From: Prorocentrum cordatum
Taxonomy: Eukaryota > Sar > Dinophyceae > Prorocentrales > Prorocentraceae
NCBI GenBank assembly: GCA_963575745.1
Contig: CAUYUJ010015726.1
Coordinates: 411,542-475,541 of the forward strand
Length of the DNA stretch: 64,000 nucleotides
Reading direction: 5' to 3'
Shown here: piece after piece, positions 34,626 through 43,575 of the stretch
How positions within the stretch are numbered: the stretch's first letter is position 1
Layout of the letters: every line of letters starts with the position of its first letter
Position numbers and translations under genes: made by a program
The notes under the pieces: generated by a model
The model's database searches: none
Told to the model about the DNA's origin: nothing
The model's input: the letters and a program-made list of their open reading frames with translations, nothing else

Positions 34626-35561
34626 TAGTCTCCGAAAACAAAACTACGTGCAATTACATCCGAAAGATTAACAGACGAACGAGATGCCACAAAGAGGCGT
34701 GAAGTAGATCATAGGGGGGTGCGACCATATTTATGTATATATATACACAACGACAATTCCATGAATACGGATTACCTTGGCAATCGTACCGTGCTCATCA
34801 CCGTATGTTTTGATCAACGTTAAAAGCCTTCACCAGCCTCGGGGTATCCGCGAAATAATATTGCTATTTGGCCTGTTTATAAAAACGCGCCCCGGACCGT
34901 TGAGGCCGAAAGAATCTGCAAACCGCGCGTGCGCGGGAAAATTCAGCAAAACATTACTTAAATTAATTCAACACATGTCGGCGATGGTGCCTCCTAACAT
35001 GTACCTGGATTGAACTGGGATGACGCCGAGCACAGTTTCTGAATAACAATCCCCGGCGAACGTGGGAATGCAGCAGCGCCCGCAGGACATACATTACACA
35101 TTTTGCGCGGTGGCCCTCGCCGAACTATTCTGGCCGGAGAGCTGCGTGGTCGGCTGGCCCTTCCGATTGGAACGCACGCGCCATCTTTATTAACGGACAT
35201 CCGGAAAAAACAATAACCTATTTTTTTTTTGCTTAGGGCATGACGGGCGTCATGGCCCCTGCCCCCGCGCCCCCTATGACATAACGCTGTCCCTCCCGGA
35301 CGGGCACCACGAAAATGTAGGTGGCGATCTGCAACACATCTTTGTGTACATCACAATGCCCGCACACCACAACGCTTGCTTCAGCTTGTGCCACCACGCT
35401 TGCGGGCACTTCAACATCACCCTAATTCCCATTTGTGTCAAGGACTCCAGCTCATTGGCCGTCCGAGAACCAAGTGGACCGATTCAATCGACCATTCTGC
35501 GGTTTACGCTGAAATGCGCACGTGCGCTGTAACGCCAAGCCGCACGACAGGGGGTAAGAAG
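34626..35561. other. AT-richer stretch, no recognised gene
   Basis: Includes TATATATACAC near 34738. 35344-35460 has a short open frame with a Cys/His-rich start (PAHHNACFSLCHHACGHFN), but no family is evident. This side flanks the 3' end of LINE-1. Confidence 0.4.
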
Positions 35562-35713
35562 GATGAGGAGGAGGAGGAGGAGGAGGAGGAGGAGGAGGAT
35601 GATGATGAGGAGGAGGAGGAGGATGAGAAGGAGGAGGAGGAGGAGGAGAAGGAGGAGGAGGAGGAGGAGGGCGAGGAGGCGGAGGAGGAGAAGGAGGAGG
35701 AGGAGGAGGAGGA
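35562..35713. repeat. (GGA)n tract at the 3' end of LINE-1
   Basis: About 150 bp of GGA with GAT and GAA interruptions. Read on the minus strand it is (TCC)n directly following the LINE-1 3' UTR. A similar tract flanks the other end (43088-43217). Confidence 0.95.
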
Positions 35714-35819
35714 TTCAAGCTGGATTCAATCGGAGCAACAGCGTTGCGGGCCACAACGCCCCAGCCCACAGGGAGACCATTGGGGCAGTGGCATCAAAGG
35801 AGGACGGCGCCTTCGGGGA
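35714..35819 (-). other. LINE-1 3' UTR
   Basis: 106 nt between the ORF2 stop (TAA at 35822-35820) and the TCC tract. It begins CCCCGAAGGCGCCGTCC and ends ATTGAATCCAGCTTGAATCC. This should contain the RT recognition site for target-primed reverse transcription (family knowledge; not visible as a motif). Confidence 0.65.
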
Positions 35820-38800
35820 TTAGTGGGTTGGACCCGCGGGCGCATCCTGAGAGAGAGTGAGAGCAGGGCCAGGATCGCTAGACGATCCAGCTCCGCTCAC
35901 ACTCGGGCGCCCCTGTCGGGCGTCAAACTCACCACGAGCCTGCATCACCATCTTTACAGCCTTAGGGGGCCCGTCGCGACGAGGGTAGAGTCCCTTCCCC
36001 AGACGGGCCAAGTTTTCCAAGCCTTTCCGACTCGGGCGGCATTCAGAGATAAGATGACGGGGGTCCACAGTAGCGTAGGCCCCACAGGTGTGACAAAAGG
36101 TCAGGAAGAATTGGTCCGCTCGGCCGAGCGAGTGCGACGGATGGACTTCAACTCCCTGCAAATTCAAACCGATACCCTGGGTGATCCTCTGAGCCCTGGG
36201 AGGGGGAGGAGCCTCAGGAGGAGGAGGAAGGGGAGGCAAACAAGGGCTCGAGCTCAACTCCAGGAGCCTAGACTGGGGCACAGCCTGGAGGCACGCCTCG
36301 CAAACCCACACAGAGCCCCTCAGGTGGAGGCGGTGGGCGGAGGCAGCGAGAGCTCGAGCAACTCTAGACTTCGGTACCACTTTGATGGGCACCGATTCTC
36401 TCTCTGTCTTCGACGATCTGTCGGCGGCAGCAGCATCCTGGAGCGCACGACGGGCACGCCTCCTGATCATAGCAGCAGCAGAGTCGACCGCATCGGTCCG
36501 AGGAAGGTCCCCCACCAGCCCCCTCTCCCACGCCAACTCCGCCGCCCTCCCCGCCCAGATATCCGCAGCCATGTTACCCATGGCGGTGAGCATCTCTTCA
36601 CACTTAAAACTCGCTCTCTCATCCGTGTGGGATGGGGTCCACCGAACCATGAGCTGGCCAGGCCTGGATCTCCACAACTTCCTAGCACGCTCCCAGAGGT
36701 CCTCCTGGAGACGCGAGGCCCTGGGATTCTCAAGGATAAACTTCCAAGACCTGGCTATATTCTTGTGGTCGGTGACGAATTCAACATTACCTGGAACATT
36801 CTCGAGCATGAGACAAAACGCGAGCAGCTCGGCCCTCGGGACAGACTGTTTCAGCCCGAGGAGAGGGACCGCAATGCCAGCACGCTCCTGAAACTGGCCC
36901 TGCCCATCAGGCGCTAGGGCCACGATAGCAGCTCCACAACGGCGACGACGAGGATCGTCTGAGTGCTTCCCACCCGACCCGTCCCCGTACACCACCGTCC
37001 ACCCCCCCTCCTCACATTCGTGAAAAGCGCCTGGCAGCCTGAGCTCGAGCTCGGCCAGCAGCGCCTCGTCGAAGCGGGGCGTGGTCATGCAAGCAGTGGG
37101 CGCGCCGCGGAGCCAGAAAGTTGGCTGACTCTGATACTGCGCTGTCGCCGCAGGCAGCAGCGATGCGGTCTTGTCGTAGTCGTCGTGGTTGCCGTTGCAC
37201 TCGCAGGACCAAATCCTGTGGAACAGCGTCTCTGGATGCTTCTCGCACCGTGGGCATGTGGTCGACTCCAGCTTGTGCCCGCAGAGATGCCTCCGAGTGC
37301 GGGTCCACTGCCCTCCAGCCACGACCGTCAAATTCAATCCATGTTCATCATGCTGGCCACGGGCCTGGTGACGCTTGAGCTCCCTCATGATATGGAAGAA
37401 GTCACCGCCACCCGCCAGGCCCTCGCCATTGTCATGCTTACTTGCCTCTAACCACAGCGCCGAGCGGATGTCACCGATGAGGTCGTCGATCAGCTCCGTC
37501 GTAGAGCCGAAGTTCTCGAACGCCTCGTCGCCGCTCGACGGGGTGTGCCACTCATCAACTCCAGCACTAGTCGGGCGAGTCCAGACCGTCGCAGTCTTAG
37601 GATCCCACCCCACATCCATCAATGTAGCAATAACTGCTGAAATCGGGCCTCTGACAATGCTCCAGCGCCGCCTCTCCGCCTTCGCAAGGCGGCCCCGAAT
37701 CGACGGCCACGCGAGCCTGAGTCGCCGATGTAGCTGCGGCTGAGCCTGCCAGAAGCTGAGCCATTCCAGAACCAACTGCCTTCGTATCTCCACCGCAGGG
37801 TCCTTCAAACCGAAAGAAGCCGCCAGCGTGCTGGTCAAGCAGCGCCCACCCTGGCCACCAGTGACGGCAGCAGCAGCTTGGCGCCGCAATGCCAGCAGGG
37901 CCGACGGGGGGGTGCCATGAACTTGGTGCCCATAAGTAGACTGCGGGCACGCACCAATCGCCCACAAGCAGCGGGCCTCTCGGCCAAGTGCAGCCATACG
38001 TCTGAGCCTCTTGATGCGCCCAGCTCGTCGCTGCGCCTTGACTCGCCTCGAGGTGGCCTTGGCGCAAACTCTGCACCTGGCGGCCGCAACGTCGACGCCG
38101 AGGTCGACGCCCTGCAATACTGGCCTCACTGGAACTCCTCTCGCACGCAACCTCTGCGCCGACTTCTTGGCCAGGGAGGCCGACGAGCCAAGAATCACAG
38201 ACTTGGAGGAGACCACCAAACGATGCTGCTTCAACCCTCGAGCCAAGGACGTGCCCACAACATCCATAGCAGGTAATGCAGCTTCCGCAGAGCCTTCGCA
38301 CCGTCCCACCGTATCGTCAATGAACGTCCACAGTGACGCCGACGGGGCCTCCTGATGCACCCTCTCCAGGATGGGGTAGAGAGCCAGCTTGGAGAAGGGG
38401 ACCCCATGGGGCGATCCAGCCACAATGCTGCGGGTAGGGAAGATCGCCTCGCTGAGCCAGCCGCGCTCGCGCAGGTAGCGCGGGTGGAGGTAGACCTGCA
38501 CCTCGAGGCCCATGACCGTCGGGCTGAAGCCGAAGTCCAGGCCAATCTGGAGGAGGCCCACCAGCGAGACGCTGTCGTAGAACTTCTCGATGTCCAGGAG
38601 GAGGACCAGGAAGCTGATCTGCTGCTCCTGGGCCGCCTCGTCGAGCGTCGCCCTCAAGAGGGCAGCGCGCAAGGCTGAAGAGCCACGCACTGCTGTGTCC
38701 CAGAACGCAGCACGCGCAGGGCACCATTGCGACGTGAAGGTCTGGCGAGCACGCGACCACAGCTTGACAGGCAACGGCGCCATGCCCAGCACGCGATCTC

Positions 38801-41720
38801 CTTCTCCCGACGGCTTCGGGGCAAGGGCAGAAAGAGTGGCCGCCAACTGCAACGGCCATGCCTGGGCTGCCTCACATCGCTGGAAAAGGCCCCTGAGCTC
38901 CTCAAGGGCCTGGGTCGGCAGGCGGCCCAGGTCGCCAGCACCAAGCCCATCAACTCCACGAGCCTTCTTGTTGCCCGTGACTCGGATAGCAGCCTGGAGC
39001 TGCTCGCAATGCAGCGGGGGGATGTCCTCCTCAGCTGCTTTGTGTCGTATTGCGCTCAGTGCTTGAATGATACTAGCTGGGGTATCCACTGCATCGCTCC
39101 AAATCTTGCCCCACTTCGTCGACTTGTTGGCCATGATCGTGATGGGGTCAGCCACCGCATTGGCGGCAAAGGAACTGGGAGTGGTCACCACCGTGGCATC
39201 CTCAGGCCGAGGGGCGACGGGGTCACGAACGTGTCGGTGGAGGGCGCCAGGGGAAGTGCGCCACATGCGACGGACCCAGTCGGCGTAGGCCTTGCGAGCC
39301 TTGCCGATGCCCCTCGCCACCTCACAAGCTGCCACCGCCTCGACTGCCACCACGACCTGACACAATCCCTCAACCATCTGGTCGCTGGTAAGACTGTGAA
39401 CCCCTTCGTGTAGGGAGACAATATGATCAAGAGCCGTCTTGGCTCTGTCTTGTAAGTCAGGTCGCTGATCCAAATGGTACTGTCGCAGATGCTGAACTCG
39501 ACCAGCAGCACTGGCCAACGCACTACACATCTGCTCCTCATCCTTGTCATGGAGGAATATGGCCAAGGTCCTCCTGCAGAGTGTGTCCATAACCGACCAA
39601 TGTTCAGCGCCATCATATTTCCAATGGCCTCGACCAGGCGACGAGACCGACTTCTTCCAAGTGACTGCAAACCCTCGGGCTCTGCCAATGAAAGGCGCAC
39701 GCTCCTGGGCCGTGAGGTTCGGGTCAAGGATGGACTGCTCAACCTGGTGAACCCACTTGCCATAGTCTTGGGATAGCTGGTCGTTCCCCTCGAGGGCCCA
39801 CGAGACGATAGGAGACTCGCCAATCATGCGCATCTCCGCCGTGAAGGTGTACTTCGGGCAACTGTCCCCATCCGCTCCAGAGGGCGAGTTAGAGTTCCAT
39901 CGATCCAGGCTGACTTCAGAGACATCGCCAGTCAAACCTTGAGGATCAAGGGGCTGATGGAGCTCGTGAAACGCATCTTGATGATCTGGAGGCAAGGCCT
40001 CCTTGCGCCTCTGGAGGGCTGCTTGCTTGCGCTGGTAGGTCTTGCTCTGCGGGTCGGGGGCCGTCGGTGGCCGATCCACAGCAGGGGGCGGCCGCGGCAA
40101 GACCAAAGCGCGGTGCCACCATGCCGTCGACGTGCCCTGTATCTCAACATGGAGGCCACAGTGGACCTTCCAAGGAACGGTAAGGACGCCCTTGACCGAG
40201 ACTAAGTCTGCCACCGACACTGACGCCACCGCATAGTCAATGAGCGACCCCGTACCCTTGTCACAGGTGACACGGACATCTGGGAGGACGATTGTGCCTC
40301 CCACATCCTTGAGGAACGAGTTGCGCTCCAGGGCCGTCGGGGTCAGGTTCCAATCTGCAACAATGATCCACGGGTCAGATACTGATGCCAAAAAGGCTCG
40401 CAGAGAAGCCCACCTATCATGATTGAGGCCTCCGAAACCGTGCTTGGGCAAGAAGTAGGCCGCGATAACAATGAGGTTGCCTGCGCGCAGATGCCAGACA
40501 GTTGGCACCCAGCCTCGGCAGGGATCCTTCAGGCGCTCCTTGGTCATCAGGGCCCTCTGCCGATCGAAGGACGTGGTAGCAAGATGGGACCGCGCCAGAA
40601 CCCACTCACCTCCACTCGCGCCCTCCGCAGACCGACCCGTGCCCACCGCAGCGCAAGCCGATAACTTCCAACCATCAACGTCCAGACTGGCACGATACTG
40701 AATGAGCTTCGCCTCGGTGACGTGAGTCTCCGCAAACGCCATCATGCCATACCTACTCTTATGCTCCACCACAAACTTGTGGATGCGGGGCCCCCATCCT
40801 GTGACATTCGCAAAGAAAGACGCACCAGCACGGTGAGGTGCCTCCGTCTGGGCCGTAGACAGCACGGGCTGGCAGAGGGGGGTCCGTTCCTCACGAGCCG
40901 ACCGTGTAACTGCTGACGCCACGCAGCTCGCTCGTGTCTCCATCCCCGAAGAGCGGGCCAGATGGGGGCTGCCACCCCCCGTAGTAGACTGGGACGCCAC
41001 CATCGGAGCTGACGATGCCACGCAGCTCGCTCGTGTCCCCATCCCCGTAGAGCGGGCCAGATGGGGATTGCAAGACACCGAAATAGATGACGCCAACTCC
41101 AATGTCTCTCGCGCCTCCATCCCCGAGGAGCGGGCCAGATGGAGGGTGCCTGTAATCGGAGCCGACGGAGCCAACTCCACTGGAGCTGAAGATGCCACGC
41201 AGCTCGGACGTGCCTCCATCCCCGAAGAGCGGGCCAGATGGAGGATGCCTGGTCTCGAGGTCGGAGGGGCCAACCTCGACGGAGCTGACGATGCCTCGCA
41301 ACTCGCTCGTGTCCCCACCCCCGTAGAGCGGGCCAGATGGGGGCTGCCTGACAACGAAGTCGGAGACGAAAGCTCCGCTGTCGCTGAAGATGCCACGCGG
41401 CTCGCACGTGCCTCCACCCCCGAAGAACGGGCCAGATGGAAGATGCCTGGACTCGAGGTCGACGGAGTCGGCCTCCACGGAGCTGACGATGCCTCGTACC
41501 TCGCTCGTGCCCCCTTCCCCGAAGAGCGGGCCAGCTGGGGGCTGACTGAGACCGAGGTCGAAGATGCCAGCTCCGATGTCACTGATGCCACGCAGCTCCC
41601 TCCTGTCGACGAAGGGCGGGCCAGGTGACTGCCTGCATGCGCGCCTTGCATAGAGCTGGGCACAGAAGAATGATATTGCTCCAGATCCTCTCCAAAGCAA
41701 TCGTCGTCGCTGAACTGCAT
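35820..41720 (-). CDS. LINE-1 ORF2: endonuclease, reverse transcriptase, RNase H polyprotein
   Basis: 1966 aa from the ATG at 41720, the first Met after the ORF1 stop. An alternative ATG at 41810 overlaps ORF1, and the open frame runs back to 42821 only because ORF1 lies in another frame. Residues about 27-280: eight ~33-aa repeats (HLARSSGM..RASCVASSAP). About 300-525: AP-type endonuclease with AETHV, VADWNLTP (near 455) and SLIDYAV. RT at about 870-1250 with LLDIEKFYD (near 1043), GSPHGVPFS and FIDDTVG (1133-1136, the F-x-D-D active site). C/H cluster at about 1480-1510 (HLCGHKLESTTCPRC). RNase H with VVYGDGSGG (Asp near 1580), PRAELLAF (Glu), VTDHKN (Asp) and MAADIW (Asp near 1718). C-terminal Cys/His motif (FCHTCGAYATVDPRH) near 1880. 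The protein nicks the target, primes cDNA on the nick and removes RNA. All key residues look intact. Translation may be by reinitiation or a +1 shift. Confidence 0.9.
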   Translation of the reverse strand: MQFSDDDCFGEDLEQYHSSVPSSMQGAHAGSHLARPSSTGGSCVASVTSELASSTSVSVSPQLARSSGKGARARYEASSAPWRPTPSTSSPGIFHLARSSGVEARASRVASSATAELSSPTSLSGSPHLARSTGVGTRASCEASSAPSRLAPPTSRPGILHLARSSGMEARPSCVASSAPVELAPSAPITGTLHLARSSGMEARETLELASSISVSCNPHLARSTGMGTRASCVASSAPMVASQSTTGGGSPHLARSSGMETRASCVASAVTRSAREERTPLCQPVLSTAQTEAPHRAGASFFANVTGWGPRIHKFVVEHKSRYGMMAFAETHVTEAKLIQYRASLDVDGWKLSACAAVGTGRSAEGASGGEWVLARSHLATTSFDRQRALMTKERLKDPCRGWVPTVWHLRAGNLIVIAAYFLPKHGFGGLNHDRWASLRAFLASVSDPWIIVADWNLTPTALERNSFLKDVGGTIVLPDVRVTCDKGTGSLIDYAVASVSVADLVSVKGVLTVPWKVHCGLHVEIQGTSTAWWHRALVLPRPPPAVDRPPTAPDPQSKTYQRKQAALQRRKEALPPDHQDAFHELHQPLDPQGLTGDVSEVSLDRWNSNSPSGADGDSCPKYTFTAEMRMIGESPIVSWALEGNDQLSQDYGKWVHQVEQSILDPNLTAQERAPFIGRARGFAVTWKKSVSSPGRGHWKYDGAEHWSVMDTLCRRTLAIFLHDKDEEQMCSALASAAGRVQHLRQYHLDQRPDLQDRAKTALDHIVSLHEGVHSLTSDQMVEGLCQVVVAVEAVAACEVARGIGKARKAYADWVRRMWRTSPGALHRHVRDPVAPRPEDATVVTTPSSFAANAVADPITIMANKSTKWGKIWSDAVDTPASIIQALSAIRHKAAEEDIPPLHCEQLQAAIRVTGNKKARGVDGLGAGDLGRLPTQALEELRGLFQRCEAAQAWPLQLAATLSALAPKPSGEGDRVLGMAPLPVKLWSRARQTFTSQWCPARAAFWDTAVRGSSALRAALLRATLDEAAQEQQISFLVLLLDIEKFYDSVSLVGLLQIGLDFGFSPTVMGLEVQVYLHPRYLRERGWLSEAIFPTRSIVAGSPHGVPFSKLALYPILERVHQEAPSASLWTFIDDTVGRCEGSAEAALPAMDVVGTSLARGLKQHRLVVSSKSVILGSSASLAKKSAQRLRARGVPVRPVLQGVDLGVDVAAARCRVCAKATSRRVKAQRRAGRIKRLRRMAALGREARCLWAIGACPQSTYGHQVHGTPPSALLALRRQAAAAVTGGQGGRCLTSTLAASFGLKDPAVEIRRQLVLEWLSFWQAQPQLHRRLRLAWPSIRGRLAKAERRRWSIVRGPISAVIATLMDVGWDPKTATVWTRPTSAGVDEWHTPSSGDEAFENFGSTTELIDDLIGDIRSALWLEASKHDNGEGLAGGGDFFHIMRELKRHQARGQHDEHGLNLTVVAGGQWTRTRRHLCGHKLESTTCPRCEKHPETLFHRIWSCECNGNHDDYDKTASLLPAATAQYQSQPTFWLRGAPTACMTTPRFDEALLAELELRLPGAFHECEEGGWTVVYGDGSGGKHSDDPRRRRCGAAIVALAPDGQGQFQERAGIAVPLLGLKQSVPRAELLAFCLMLENVPGNVEFVTDHKNIARSWKFILENPRASRLQEDLWERARKLWRSRPGQLMVRWTPSHTDERASFKCEEMLTAMGNMAADIWAGRAAELAWERGLVGDLPRTDAVDSAAAMIRRRARRALQDAAAADRSSKTERESVPIKVVPKSRVARALAASAHRLHLRGSVWVCEACLQAVPQSRLLELSSSPCLPPLPPPPEAPPPPRAQRITQGIGLNLQGVEVHPSHSLGRADQFFLTFCHTCGAYATVDPRHLISECRPSRKGLENLARLGKGLYPRRDGPPKAVKMVMQARGEFDARQGRPSVSGAGSSSDPGPALTLSQDAPAGPTH
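40880..41640 (-). repeat. 99-bp in-frame minisatellite within ORF2
   Basis: GAGCGGGCCAGATGG recurs every ~99 bp (or a multiple) from about 40950 to 41625. 99 is divisible by three, so each unit adds 33 residues without breaking the frame. It separates the start of ORF2 from the endonuclease domain and probably acts as a flexible linker. Confidence 0.9.
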
Positions 41721-41760
41721 GTCCTGGAGGGGGTCGATATCCACATCATCCAGTGTGGTG

Positions 41761-43068
41761 CTACCCCCTCTTCGGAGGAGGGGCCTTGGCGCGAGGTGGA
41801 GGCCGACCATCACCGCCGCCGCCAGGGCCAGGAGGGGCAGCTGCCACGCCGACATCCACAGGGGACCTCGCGACAGGGCTCGCCTTCGCAGCAGACTGCT
41901 CGAGTCGTTCACGTGCTGCCTTGACCTTGAAGGCACGGGCCTTGGCCTCAACGTCAGGCGGGGCTGCTGGGGCTGCTGCCGCGGCCGCCGCCTTGGCTCC
42001 CTCGGTGCCAGTTGCGGTGCCCACCTCGGCGCCGTCTTCAGCCTTCGTGGCTGGGCCCTGCGAACCCTCAGAGTCGACTGCCGACGCCGTCGCCTCTGGG
42101 CCAGACGCCACCCCCACCGCGCGCCGCCGCTTGAGGGGCGCCTGCGCTGCAGCCAGCTTGACCCCCTCGAGGTCCGTCTGGACGGCGTGGATGACGGCCG
42201 CGGCCTGGTCCTTGGCCTCATCCATGGCCGTGAGGGCCGTCTGCAGCTTGTCCTTGGCCTCTCCATCCTCGTACTCCTCAATCGAAATACTCTTGAGCTT
42301 ATCTTCATACGCTGCCAAGAAATCGGGCACAGACTCGGGCTTGACCTCAGAAGCCGTCTGGGCACGAACATTGTTGTAGGCCAGGACCGCGGCCTCGTGG
42401 GCCTCCTCAGCGTCCACGAGCTCCCCCATGGCCTGATCGTAGTCCTGGCGCGCCTGCTTGAGGCGCGTCTCCAAGTTGGAAATCTCCGAGAGGAAGTTGT
42501 GGGCGTTGGTGGCCGCCTGCTTCGCCTTGGCCTCCGTCGACTGGAGCTGCTCCAAGGGTGTGCGCGACCTCGGCAACGCGGGCGTCTCGACTGCCTGCTT
42601 GATGGCGAGAACTGAAGCCGTAACCGATGCATCTTGCTGCACAAGGGCCTCAAGCTGGTTGATGAGCTTCGCCTTACCCCAGGGGCTGAAGATCGCAGGA
42701 GATGAAGCGGCAGGCACTGCTGGCCCAGGCCCCTTCGGCAATCCTCCCTTGGGCTTGTCTTTCTTCTTCTTCGGAGAGTAGAGCTGCTGCGCCTGTCCAC
42801 ACACCGAGCAAGCTCCGCCATTCTTGATGATACGCCAGTTCCAATCCCACTGCTTGCCAGCGCGGCAGGACGGGGTCGGGCACATGGTGTAGCTCGTGCG
42901 AGGTTGCTGCGGCGCCATGGCAGGGCGCTGATGTGAAAGAGAAGGGGCTTGTACCGTCGCGCTGCTAGCGACGGGATCGGAATCCCCTGAAATCACTGTC
43001 GGGCTGAGCAGCCCTGGCACTGGCCGCGGACTAGCGGTATCCACGTGTTCCCCTGTGGAACAAACCAT
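41761..43068 (-). CDS. LINE-1 ORF1: zinc-binding and coiled-coil protein
   Basis: 435 aa. It starts at the ATG that directly follows the spliced leader (43068) and ends at TAG 41763-41761. Residues 63-90 contain CX4C (CPTPSC) and CX2C (CSVC), a likely zinc ribbon. The lysine-rich KKKKDKPK follows at about 100-107. Residues about 165-310 are Ala/Glu/Gln/Lys-rich and heptad-like (NFLSEISNLETRLKQARQ), a probable coiled coil. The C-terminus is Ala/Pro/Gly-rich. Non-LTR ORF1 proteins usually bind element RNA and multimerise, which fits, although I see no RRM. ORF2 begins about 40 nt downstream in another frame. Confidence 0.8.
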   Translation of the reverse strand: MVCSTGEHVDTASPRPVPGLLSPTVISGDSDPVASSATVQAPSLSHQRPAMAPQQPRTSYTMCPTPSCRAGKQWDWNWRIIKNGGACSVCGQAQQLYSPKKKKDKPKGGLPKGPGPAVPAASSPAIFSPWGKAKLINQLEALVQQDASVTASVLAIKQAVETPALPRSRTPLEQLQSTEAKAKQAATNAHNFLSEISNLETRLKQARQDYDQAMGELVDAEEAHEAAVLAYNNVRAQTASEVKPESVPDFLAAYEDKLKSISIEEYEDGEAKDKLQTALTAMDEAKDQAAAVIHAVQTDLEGVKLAAAQAPLKRRRAVGVASGPEATASAVDSEGSQGPATKAEDGAEVGTATGTEGAKAAAAAAAPAAPPDVEAKARAFKVKAARERLEQSAAKASPVARSPVDVGVAAAPPGPGGGGDGRPPPRAKAPPPKRG

Positions 43069-43090
43069 CTTGAGCCAAAATGGCTACGGA
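43069..43090 (-). other. Dinoflagellate spliced leader, full 22 nt, fused to the ORF1 start codon
   Basis: Read on the minus strand it starts TCCGTAGCC, continues ATTTTGGCTCAAG and is followed at once by ATGG. It matches all 22 positions of the conserved dinoflagellate leader (first base T, allowed as D). In the cell this sequence is added to pre-mRNA by trans-splicing and is not normally encoded next to genes, so its presence here marks a reverse-transcribed mature mRNA. The 5' UTR of that mRNA was the leader alone. Confidence 0.97.
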
Positions 43091-43217
43091 GGAGGAGGAG
43101 GAGGAGGAGCAGAAGGAGGAGGAGGAGGAGGAGGAGGAGGAGGAGGAGGAGGAGGAGCAGGAGGACGGGAGGAGGACGGGAGGAGGAGGGGGAGGAGGAG
43201 GAGCGAGGAGGAAAAGA
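43088..43217. repeat. (GGA)n tract at the 5' end of LINE-1
   Basis: About 130 bp of GGA with GCA, GAC and GGG interruptions. Its last GGA (43088-43090) is shared with the first three bases of the leader read on the minus strand (TCC), a possible microhomology joint. Confidence 0.95.
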
Positions 43218-43283
43218 CGTCGCATTCGATTATCAAAACTTTCCTGGCGTGGCATTGTCCGCATCAGACACGTACATGCTCCT

Positions 43284-43575
43284 TCTACCTGTCCTACGCA
43301 CGCAAGCACTGTGGTGTACACCAGCGCTGCGTTGCACGCGGATGTTCTGGTGTAGACAGGCGCTGTGGCATGCACAAGCGTTGCGGTGCACACAAGCACT
43401 GTGGTGTCGCTGTGTTGCACATGGTTGCTGCGGTGTATATACACCGGCACTGTCGTGCTCCCAAGTATTGTGGTATACACAAGCGGTGCGTTGCACACGG
43501 CTGTTGCCGTGTAGGTACGCAGGCGTTGTGGTGCACACGCGCGGCGTGGTGCACGCGAGCGTTGTGGTGTACACA
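43284..43575. repeat. Degenerate minisatellite (GTGGTGTACACAAGC-type)
   Basis: About 12 imperfect units of 20-25 bp with GTTGTGGTGTACACA and GCGTTGCAC words. Confidence 0.8.

Follow-up and report, generated by a model that had tools for sequence, protein, structure and literature searches.

What is a complete spliced leader (SL), a sequence that dinoflagellates add to mRNA by trans-splicing, doing in genomic DNA immediately before the first codon of a long interspersed nuclear element (LINE)? The question is raised by a stretch of 64,000 nucleotides (nt) of the Prorocentrum cordatum genome (contig CAUYUJ010015726.1), referred to here as the window. The answer that we consider likely is that the SL is the true 5' end of a non-long-terminal-repeat (non-LTR) retrotransposon, the RNA of which would be trans-spliced like a host mRNA and copied, to its last 5' base, into a TCC microsatellite. 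Comparison of related copies fixes the limits of the element, and reveals TCC on both sides, target-site duplications (TSDs) of 12-13 nt lying outside the SL, and copies with an extra, truncated SL.

Limits of the element and its target

The dinoflagellate SL, TCCGTAGCCATTTTGGCTCAAG, is matched at 22 of 22 positions on the minus strand at 43069-43090. This is its single occurrence in the window, against an expectation of 0 from 100 shuffles. As an earlier note on this DNA had stated, the leader is complete and ends at the start of open reading frame (ORF) 1, the next three bases being ATG. The features that define the insertion are the following.

43069..43090, minus strand: full 22-nt SL, the 5' terminus of the inserted LINE cDNA (sequence match and family comparison)
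35711..43090, minus strand: LINE copy of 7380 nt, from SL nt 1 (43090) to ...GCTTGAATCC (35711), without poly(A) (end comparison among copies)
41761..43068, minus strand: ORF1, 435 amino acids (aa), first base directly after the SL (open frame with start ATG at 43068-43066)
43091..43212, minus strand: 5' flanking TCC microsatellite, target site (tract detected over 43088-43212; target nature from family comparison)
35560..35710, minus strand: 3' flanking TCC microsatellite, target site (tract detected over 35560-35713)
43091..43102, minus strand: 5' copy of a putative 12-nt TSD, (TCC)4 (pure tract, uninformative in this copy)
35699..35710, minus strand: 3' copy of the putative 12-nt TSD (pure tract, uninformative in this copy)

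Relatives of the element were sought throughout the genome (4.128 Gb, 21,875 contigs) with 399 nt of ORF1 as the query. This gave at least 42 matches from the 40 of 873 first-look candidates that were scored, so the family is larger than the matches listed; the best 30 were cut out as loci. To compare the two ends we used the window and 13 further copies having both, leaving out L032 (no SL), L013 (3' end beyond its contig) and L020 (5' end at a contig edge). In 12 of these 14 copies the bases that immediately precede the SL, or its first T, recur directly behind the 3' end. In 7 of the 14 the duplication was interrupted, hence informative, and always 12-13 nt long. When 5' and 3' ends from different copies were paired as a control, 45 of 182 pairings matched and 2 of 182 did so informatively. 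Since the TSDs lie outside the SL, the inserted cDNA begins with the leader.

In the window, the initial T of the 22-mer also fits the adjoining TCC tract. We assign it to the element because in L026 and L018 a T sits between the TSD and CCG; in L026 the TSD is TCCCCCCAGGGTG, followed by the first T of the SL. More widely, the base before CCG is T at 90 of 100 listed pyrimidine-flanked SL sites, and the D of the SL consensus permits T. The SL is in phase with TCC at 35 of the 58 sites that have a clean tract, which fits, without proving, microhomology of the target with the UCC at the start of the SL.

The 3' ends agree with a microsatellite target. They could be read in 24 of 27 copies (a set of 8, one of them ended by its contig, and a set of 19), and in 22 of these 24 at least 18 of the 20 bases after GCTTGAATCC are pyrimidines. 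The other two (L116 and L124) lie at a tract edge and have an informative TSD. Insertions are thus confined to one microsatellite, with 3' ends inside the tract in 22/24 and at its edge in 2/24, and the 5' sides agree. No poly(A) was seen at the 3' ends of the 27 copies. A 260-nt 5'-truncated copy (C6069) has TCC on both sides, and since it and the 5'-truncated L032 also sit in TCC, the tract is not part of the element.

The leader across the family and the genome

The earlier note had suggested tabulating the 5' ends of relatives, and had named conserved DNA upstream of the SL as the finding that would make the leader an internal part of the element. An SL with at most four errors precedes ATG in 28 of the 30 loci (18 exact, 6 with one error, 3 with two and 1 with four), directly in 26 of the 28 and by way of one truncated second SL in L012 and L034. 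Of the two loci lacking an SL, L020 lies at a contig edge and L032 is 5'-truncated, yet within a TCC tract. Across the 30 loci no conserved DNA was found upstream of the SL, only the TCC tract, the length of which varies from 0 to 767 nt. Beyond the tract, BLAST detected dispersed repeats common to some pairs, none of them reaching the tract in both copies.

A 31-nt stretch of the 5' module that follows the SL provided a wider sample, with 81 exact sites in the genome. At least 40 of the 81 have the exact 19-nt tail of the SL and ATG in register. Among the 35 sites without an exact tail we inspected 23, namely 20 newly fetched ones together with L018, L022 and L012. The newly fetched sites have SLs with one error (17 sites), two errors (2) or five errors (L154), and the 30 nt upstream are 73-100% pyrimidine; L018 and L022 have an SL with one error, and L012 an SL followed by a relict leader. 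All 63 module sites examined therefore begin at an SL or a derivative of it, and the SL stands where it does in SL-bearing dinoflagellate retrocopies, at the 5' end and adjoining the insertion boundary. The rearranged leader of L154, CCGTAGCCATTTT+CCATTTTTGGCTCAAG, is an SL/relict hybrid. The bodies of L019, L021, L023 and L024 versus L009 and L027, L028 are near-identical and their first 70-145 nt differ, an exchange of the 5' module in which the SL is kept in all.

The extra leaders are informative about the history of single copies. L012 carries the SL plus CCATTTTGGCTCAAG, and L010, 99.2% identical to it over the compared ORF1 stretch, carries one SL. The second relict-bearing locus, L034, is separate from L012 on the tree. 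The relict is truncated after SL nt 7, at an AG, the same point known for relict dinoflagellate SLs (PMC3229502). Judged from these sequences, the second, truncated SL in L012 and L034 is the mark of a further round of trans-splicing. The leader has also diverged less than the rest of the element: over the 145 most diverged pairs, SL divergence is 4.5% and body divergence 22.7%, and the SL has 14 mismatches where decay on tip branches alone predicts, as a rough estimate, 24.1.

The genome contains 14,218 exact copies of 21 nt of the SL; the parts consulted of one study give 496 and 244 putative DinoSLs, obtained by another method, for two Symbiodiniaceae genomes (PMC8045281). ATG follows directly in 1823 of the 14,218, where about 222 would be expected from 1/64, and an exact relict follows in 1202. 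Fourteen straight pyrimidines precede 3860 of these SLs (such positions make up 0.7% of the window), and D plus 13 purines precede 1288. We classified the upstream tract by rule for the first 66 of 100 listed exact sites: it was TCC in 27, GGA in 13, another simple repeat in 5 and none of these in 21. TCC or GGA thus precedes 40/66 SLs, compared with 1.6% of random window positions (0.8% each). In the same sample 10 of 66 SLs are followed by a relict with at most three errors, 6 of them exact.

Some of these leaders appear to belong to other LINEs. On contig C2, five of eight SL sites have LINE ORF2 homology behind them, on their own strand and no more than about 7 kb away (tblastn E 7e-44 to 1e-9), and three do not. 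An arrangement with the SL in front is shared by many LINE families here; neither this nor the flanking TCC target was mentioned in the earlier note. SL inserts after GGA rather than TCC are found at L003, L049, L052, L054, L055, L057, L059, L081, L083, L094, L095, L102 and L113, as if these lineages used the target in the opposite orientation.

Other SL sites differ in kind. In L057, L098 and L101 (and L060) what appears by eye to be a degenerate full-length SL (TCCG...) stands behind the SL, not the inner-AG form; here an acceptor AG in the flank was perhaps used. At L103-L105 (contig C39) three SL copies lie 3-5 kb apart in a local repeat, with near-identical flanks on both sides and without TCC; the repeat is perhaps related to SL RNA. 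For 20 of the 26 SL sites on contigs C1 and C2 the longest ORFs that follow were compared with Pfam (E 0.01), and 16 gave no match. The remaining matches were of KOW type at L008 and single, weak and below the cut-off at L002, L057 and L065. L008 (1500-2540) consists of an SL, a relict and an ORF with a KOW domain (23.3 bits, cut-off 22.3), has TCC on both sides, and showed no poly(A). It is the sole good candidate for a retrocopy of a host mRNA, and a link between the LINEs and host retrogenes is at this point hypothetical.

Coding regions and the 5' module

The earlier note was also right that both ORFs of this LINE are open, ORF1 with 435 aa and the ORF2 frame with 2333 codons. The remaining features of the element are these.

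35820..41810, minus strand: ORF2 (frame open over 35820-42821, 2333 codons; putative start; overlaps the end of ORF1)
40227..40817, minus strand: endonuclease region of ORF2, APE-like (motif positions and homology to relative P0004)
38208..38660, minus strand: reverse transcriptase, RVT_1 stretch, FIDD motif at 38324 (Pfam and motif positions)
36618..36995, minus strand: RNase H-like region of ORF2 (motif positions and relative P0006)
43020..43042, minus strand: hairpin B (GGATACCGCTAGTCCGCGGCCAG), stem 43037-43034 with 43027-43024 (covariation between LINE families)

ORF1 bears C..C pairs (C-P-T-P-S-C ... C-S-V-C), looks coiled-coil-like by eye, and gave no Pfam match, to a DNMT domain or any other. 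ORF2 probably starts at the ATG at 41810. It matches RVT_1 with E 6.4e-6 and 26.5 bits, under the Pfam cut-off of 29.6, and relative P0003 reaches the cut-off. The endonuclease stretch of the window copy had no Pfam match of its own; relative P0004 scores 24.1 bits against Exo_endo_phos (cut-off 24.5), and relative P0006 matches RNase_H with E 9e-9. No homologue of ORF2 was found in the structure database at E 0.01. The N-terminal part of the ORF2 frame contains an array of repeats of about 99/198 nt (33-aa units) at 41108-41598. The element thus has the reverse transcriptase and, through P0004, the endonuclease of a LINE, together with TSDs and 5'-truncated copies, and no long terminal repeats were present among the 20 largest of the 46 direct-repeat families in the window. 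A 3' tail of poly(A) or short repeats is not seen as such: GCTTGAATCC is followed by TCC, either tail or target. A poly(A) tail is not universal among LINEs.

The 5' module is structured. A hairpin whose loop lies near TAGTCC, some 26-40 nt after the SL, recurs at the start (first 75 nt) of other LINE families (L001, L005, L007, L038, L048, L062, L074, L076, L079, L089, L109 and L110). In an alignment of 16 of 19 loci, omitting L019 and L058 (other loop length) and L030, all 4 of 4 stem pairs are changed on both sides and 96.7% of cells are paired, compared with at most 41.7% in slid controls; these figures are biased upwards because the loci were chosen for showing the motif. A ribozyme like that of hepatitis delta virus (HDV) was considered for the 5' end and rejected: Rfam gave five weak matches over 42600-43300 at E up to 10, none of them HDV-like.

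How the leader may be acquired

The results above are consistent with a cycle in which RNA of the element, arising by read-through or host transcription, would receive the SL by trans-splicing. The usual acceptor would be the leader's own terminal AG (CTCAAG|ATG), so that exactly one leader is restored per cycle, and occasional use of the inner AG (CCGTAG|CC) would add a relict. We take the terminal AG to be the usual site because relicts would accumulate if the inner one were used repeatedly, and the family has few of them. At the target, a nicked GGA strand would then prime on the UCC-ended RNA, with reverse transcription proceeding to the RNA's 5' end. As a guess, the TCC tract could serve as the pyrimidine tract of the splice acceptor. 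The claim of the earlier note that the element is trans-spliced and copied to its very 5' end is largely supported, and divides in two: that the SL is the end of the cDNA stands, from the TSDs outside it, and trans-splicing itself is what we infer.

Several observations weigh against this interpretation. The support for trans-splicing of the LINE comes from genomic DNA. At trans-splice acceptors of Amphidinium carterae, AG is reported as the only simple consensus (PMC2488372), a finding that makes a role as pyrimidine tract less plausible. Upstream control positions in seven SL loci (7420 positions) were GGA in 8.4% and TCC in 1.8%, above random, and the 21 of 66 SLs without a preceding simple repeat mean that TCC/GGA is not universal for SL-bearing inserts. 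No TSD is seen in L016/L045, and that of the window, being pure TCC, is uninformative. Finally, the family has few relicts (2 exact relict sites, compared with 104 that have a single SL), a rarity accounted for by trans-splicing at the terminal AG and equally by plain inheritance of the SL.

Indeed, inheritance is the alternative that survives best, although we regard it as unlikely. The SL would have been gained once by trans-splicing and then passed on, and an internal promoter, comparable to Pr77 of trypanosomatid LINEs, would start the RNA at the SL. The presence of the SL at all 63 examined module sites, the few relicts and the conserved, structured module just downstream count in favour of this alternative. 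However, the SL has diverged far less than the body, and its mismatches do not exceed the rough tip-branch prediction; L012 acquired its second leader after the split from L010; and the same exact SL occurs at sites whose 5' ends look unlike those of the window's family. Much less probable still is that the TCC tract forms the 5' and 3' parts of the element, for instance promoter plus tail. TCC does stand at both ends of most copies, but the 5' tract ranges down to 0 nt, 5'-truncated copies remain within TCC, interrupted tracts occur in duplicate, in register, on the two sides, and L026 and L028 lie at tract edges. Insertion into or beside an SL exon, as known for other, SL-exon-specific non-LTR elements (SLACS, CZAR and NeSL; PMC4640811), is contradicted by TSDs outside the SL and by a 3' side of TCC without any SL remainder, and has almost no probability left. 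A single accidental retrocopy, meaningless for the family, would account for one copy, relict leaders being known in recycled mRNAs (PMC3229502, PMC7245778), and is contradicted by the family counts to the point where we give it practically no weight.

Related systems are described in the sections of the literature seen by us as follows. In relict-DinoSL retrogenes an SL or truncated SL is copied into the genome from trans-spliced RNA, and a second SL is joined at the inner AG (PMC3229502, PMC7245778); these were described for host genes, whereas here the retroposed RNA would be the LINE's own. The trypanosomatid ingi/L1Tc LINEs (Pr77) likewise live in an SL trans-splicing host and share a short 5' module of about 75 nt; in contrast, the SL is the 5' end here, and Rfam found nothing HDV-like over the interval given above. 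SLACS, CZAR and NeSL are also non-LTR and SL-linked, but insert into SL exons, and here the SL lies inside the TSDs. Togen, at (TG)n, is likewise a microsatellite-inserting LINE (PMC4640811); the present element differs in its TCC target, its 5' SL and an endonuclease that is, by homology, APE-like rather than restriction-like. In Schistosoma mansoni six exonic SLs are merged to transposable elements, possibly trans-spliced and retro-transcribed (PMC5832876); the cases are few, assembly chimeras are allowed for by the authors, and they come without a family-wide 5' rule or TSD. The SymbioLINE-Dnmt elements are dinoflagellate LINEs that also have two ORFs and the domains Exo_endo_phos, RVT_1 and RNase_H (PMC5890265); they carry a DNMT, which ORF1 of the window lacks by Pfam, and the main text of that report does not mention the spliced leader. 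A proposal made for viral insertions involves LINE-mediated retroposition and relict dinoSLs (PMC10235124). In the portions of the literature searched (mostly open-access journal papers) we found no dinoflagellate LINE that begins with an SL or targets TCC tracts.

A broader scheme, which we put forward tentatively and with somewhat less than even confidence, is that this LINE lineage has no promoter or 5' untranslated region (UTR) of its own. Insertion into TCC would supply an acceptor before the leader, read-through RNAs would be re-capped at the terminal AG, and the 5' end would be renewed in each cycle. The same TCC/GGA enzymes might retropose host SL-mRNAs, the process known as dinoflagellate mRNA recycling, and many SLs used as retrogene markers might be LINE 5' ends. 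With five of eight SL sites on one contig leading to LINE ORF2 homology, a genomic SL alone is no proof of a host retrogene. The element that mediates mRNA recycling is called unknown in a review, which, in the part seen, favours LTR elements (PMC6050394); a non-LTR, TCC/GGA-targeting machinery would now be a candidate. If the reading of the SL as a trans-spliced 5' end is true, trans-splicing is a solution to the problem that a retroelement faces at its 5' end: the host would supply the first 22 nt anew, making it needless to copy a promoter or 5' UTR, and the TCC target would also provide the next splice acceptor.
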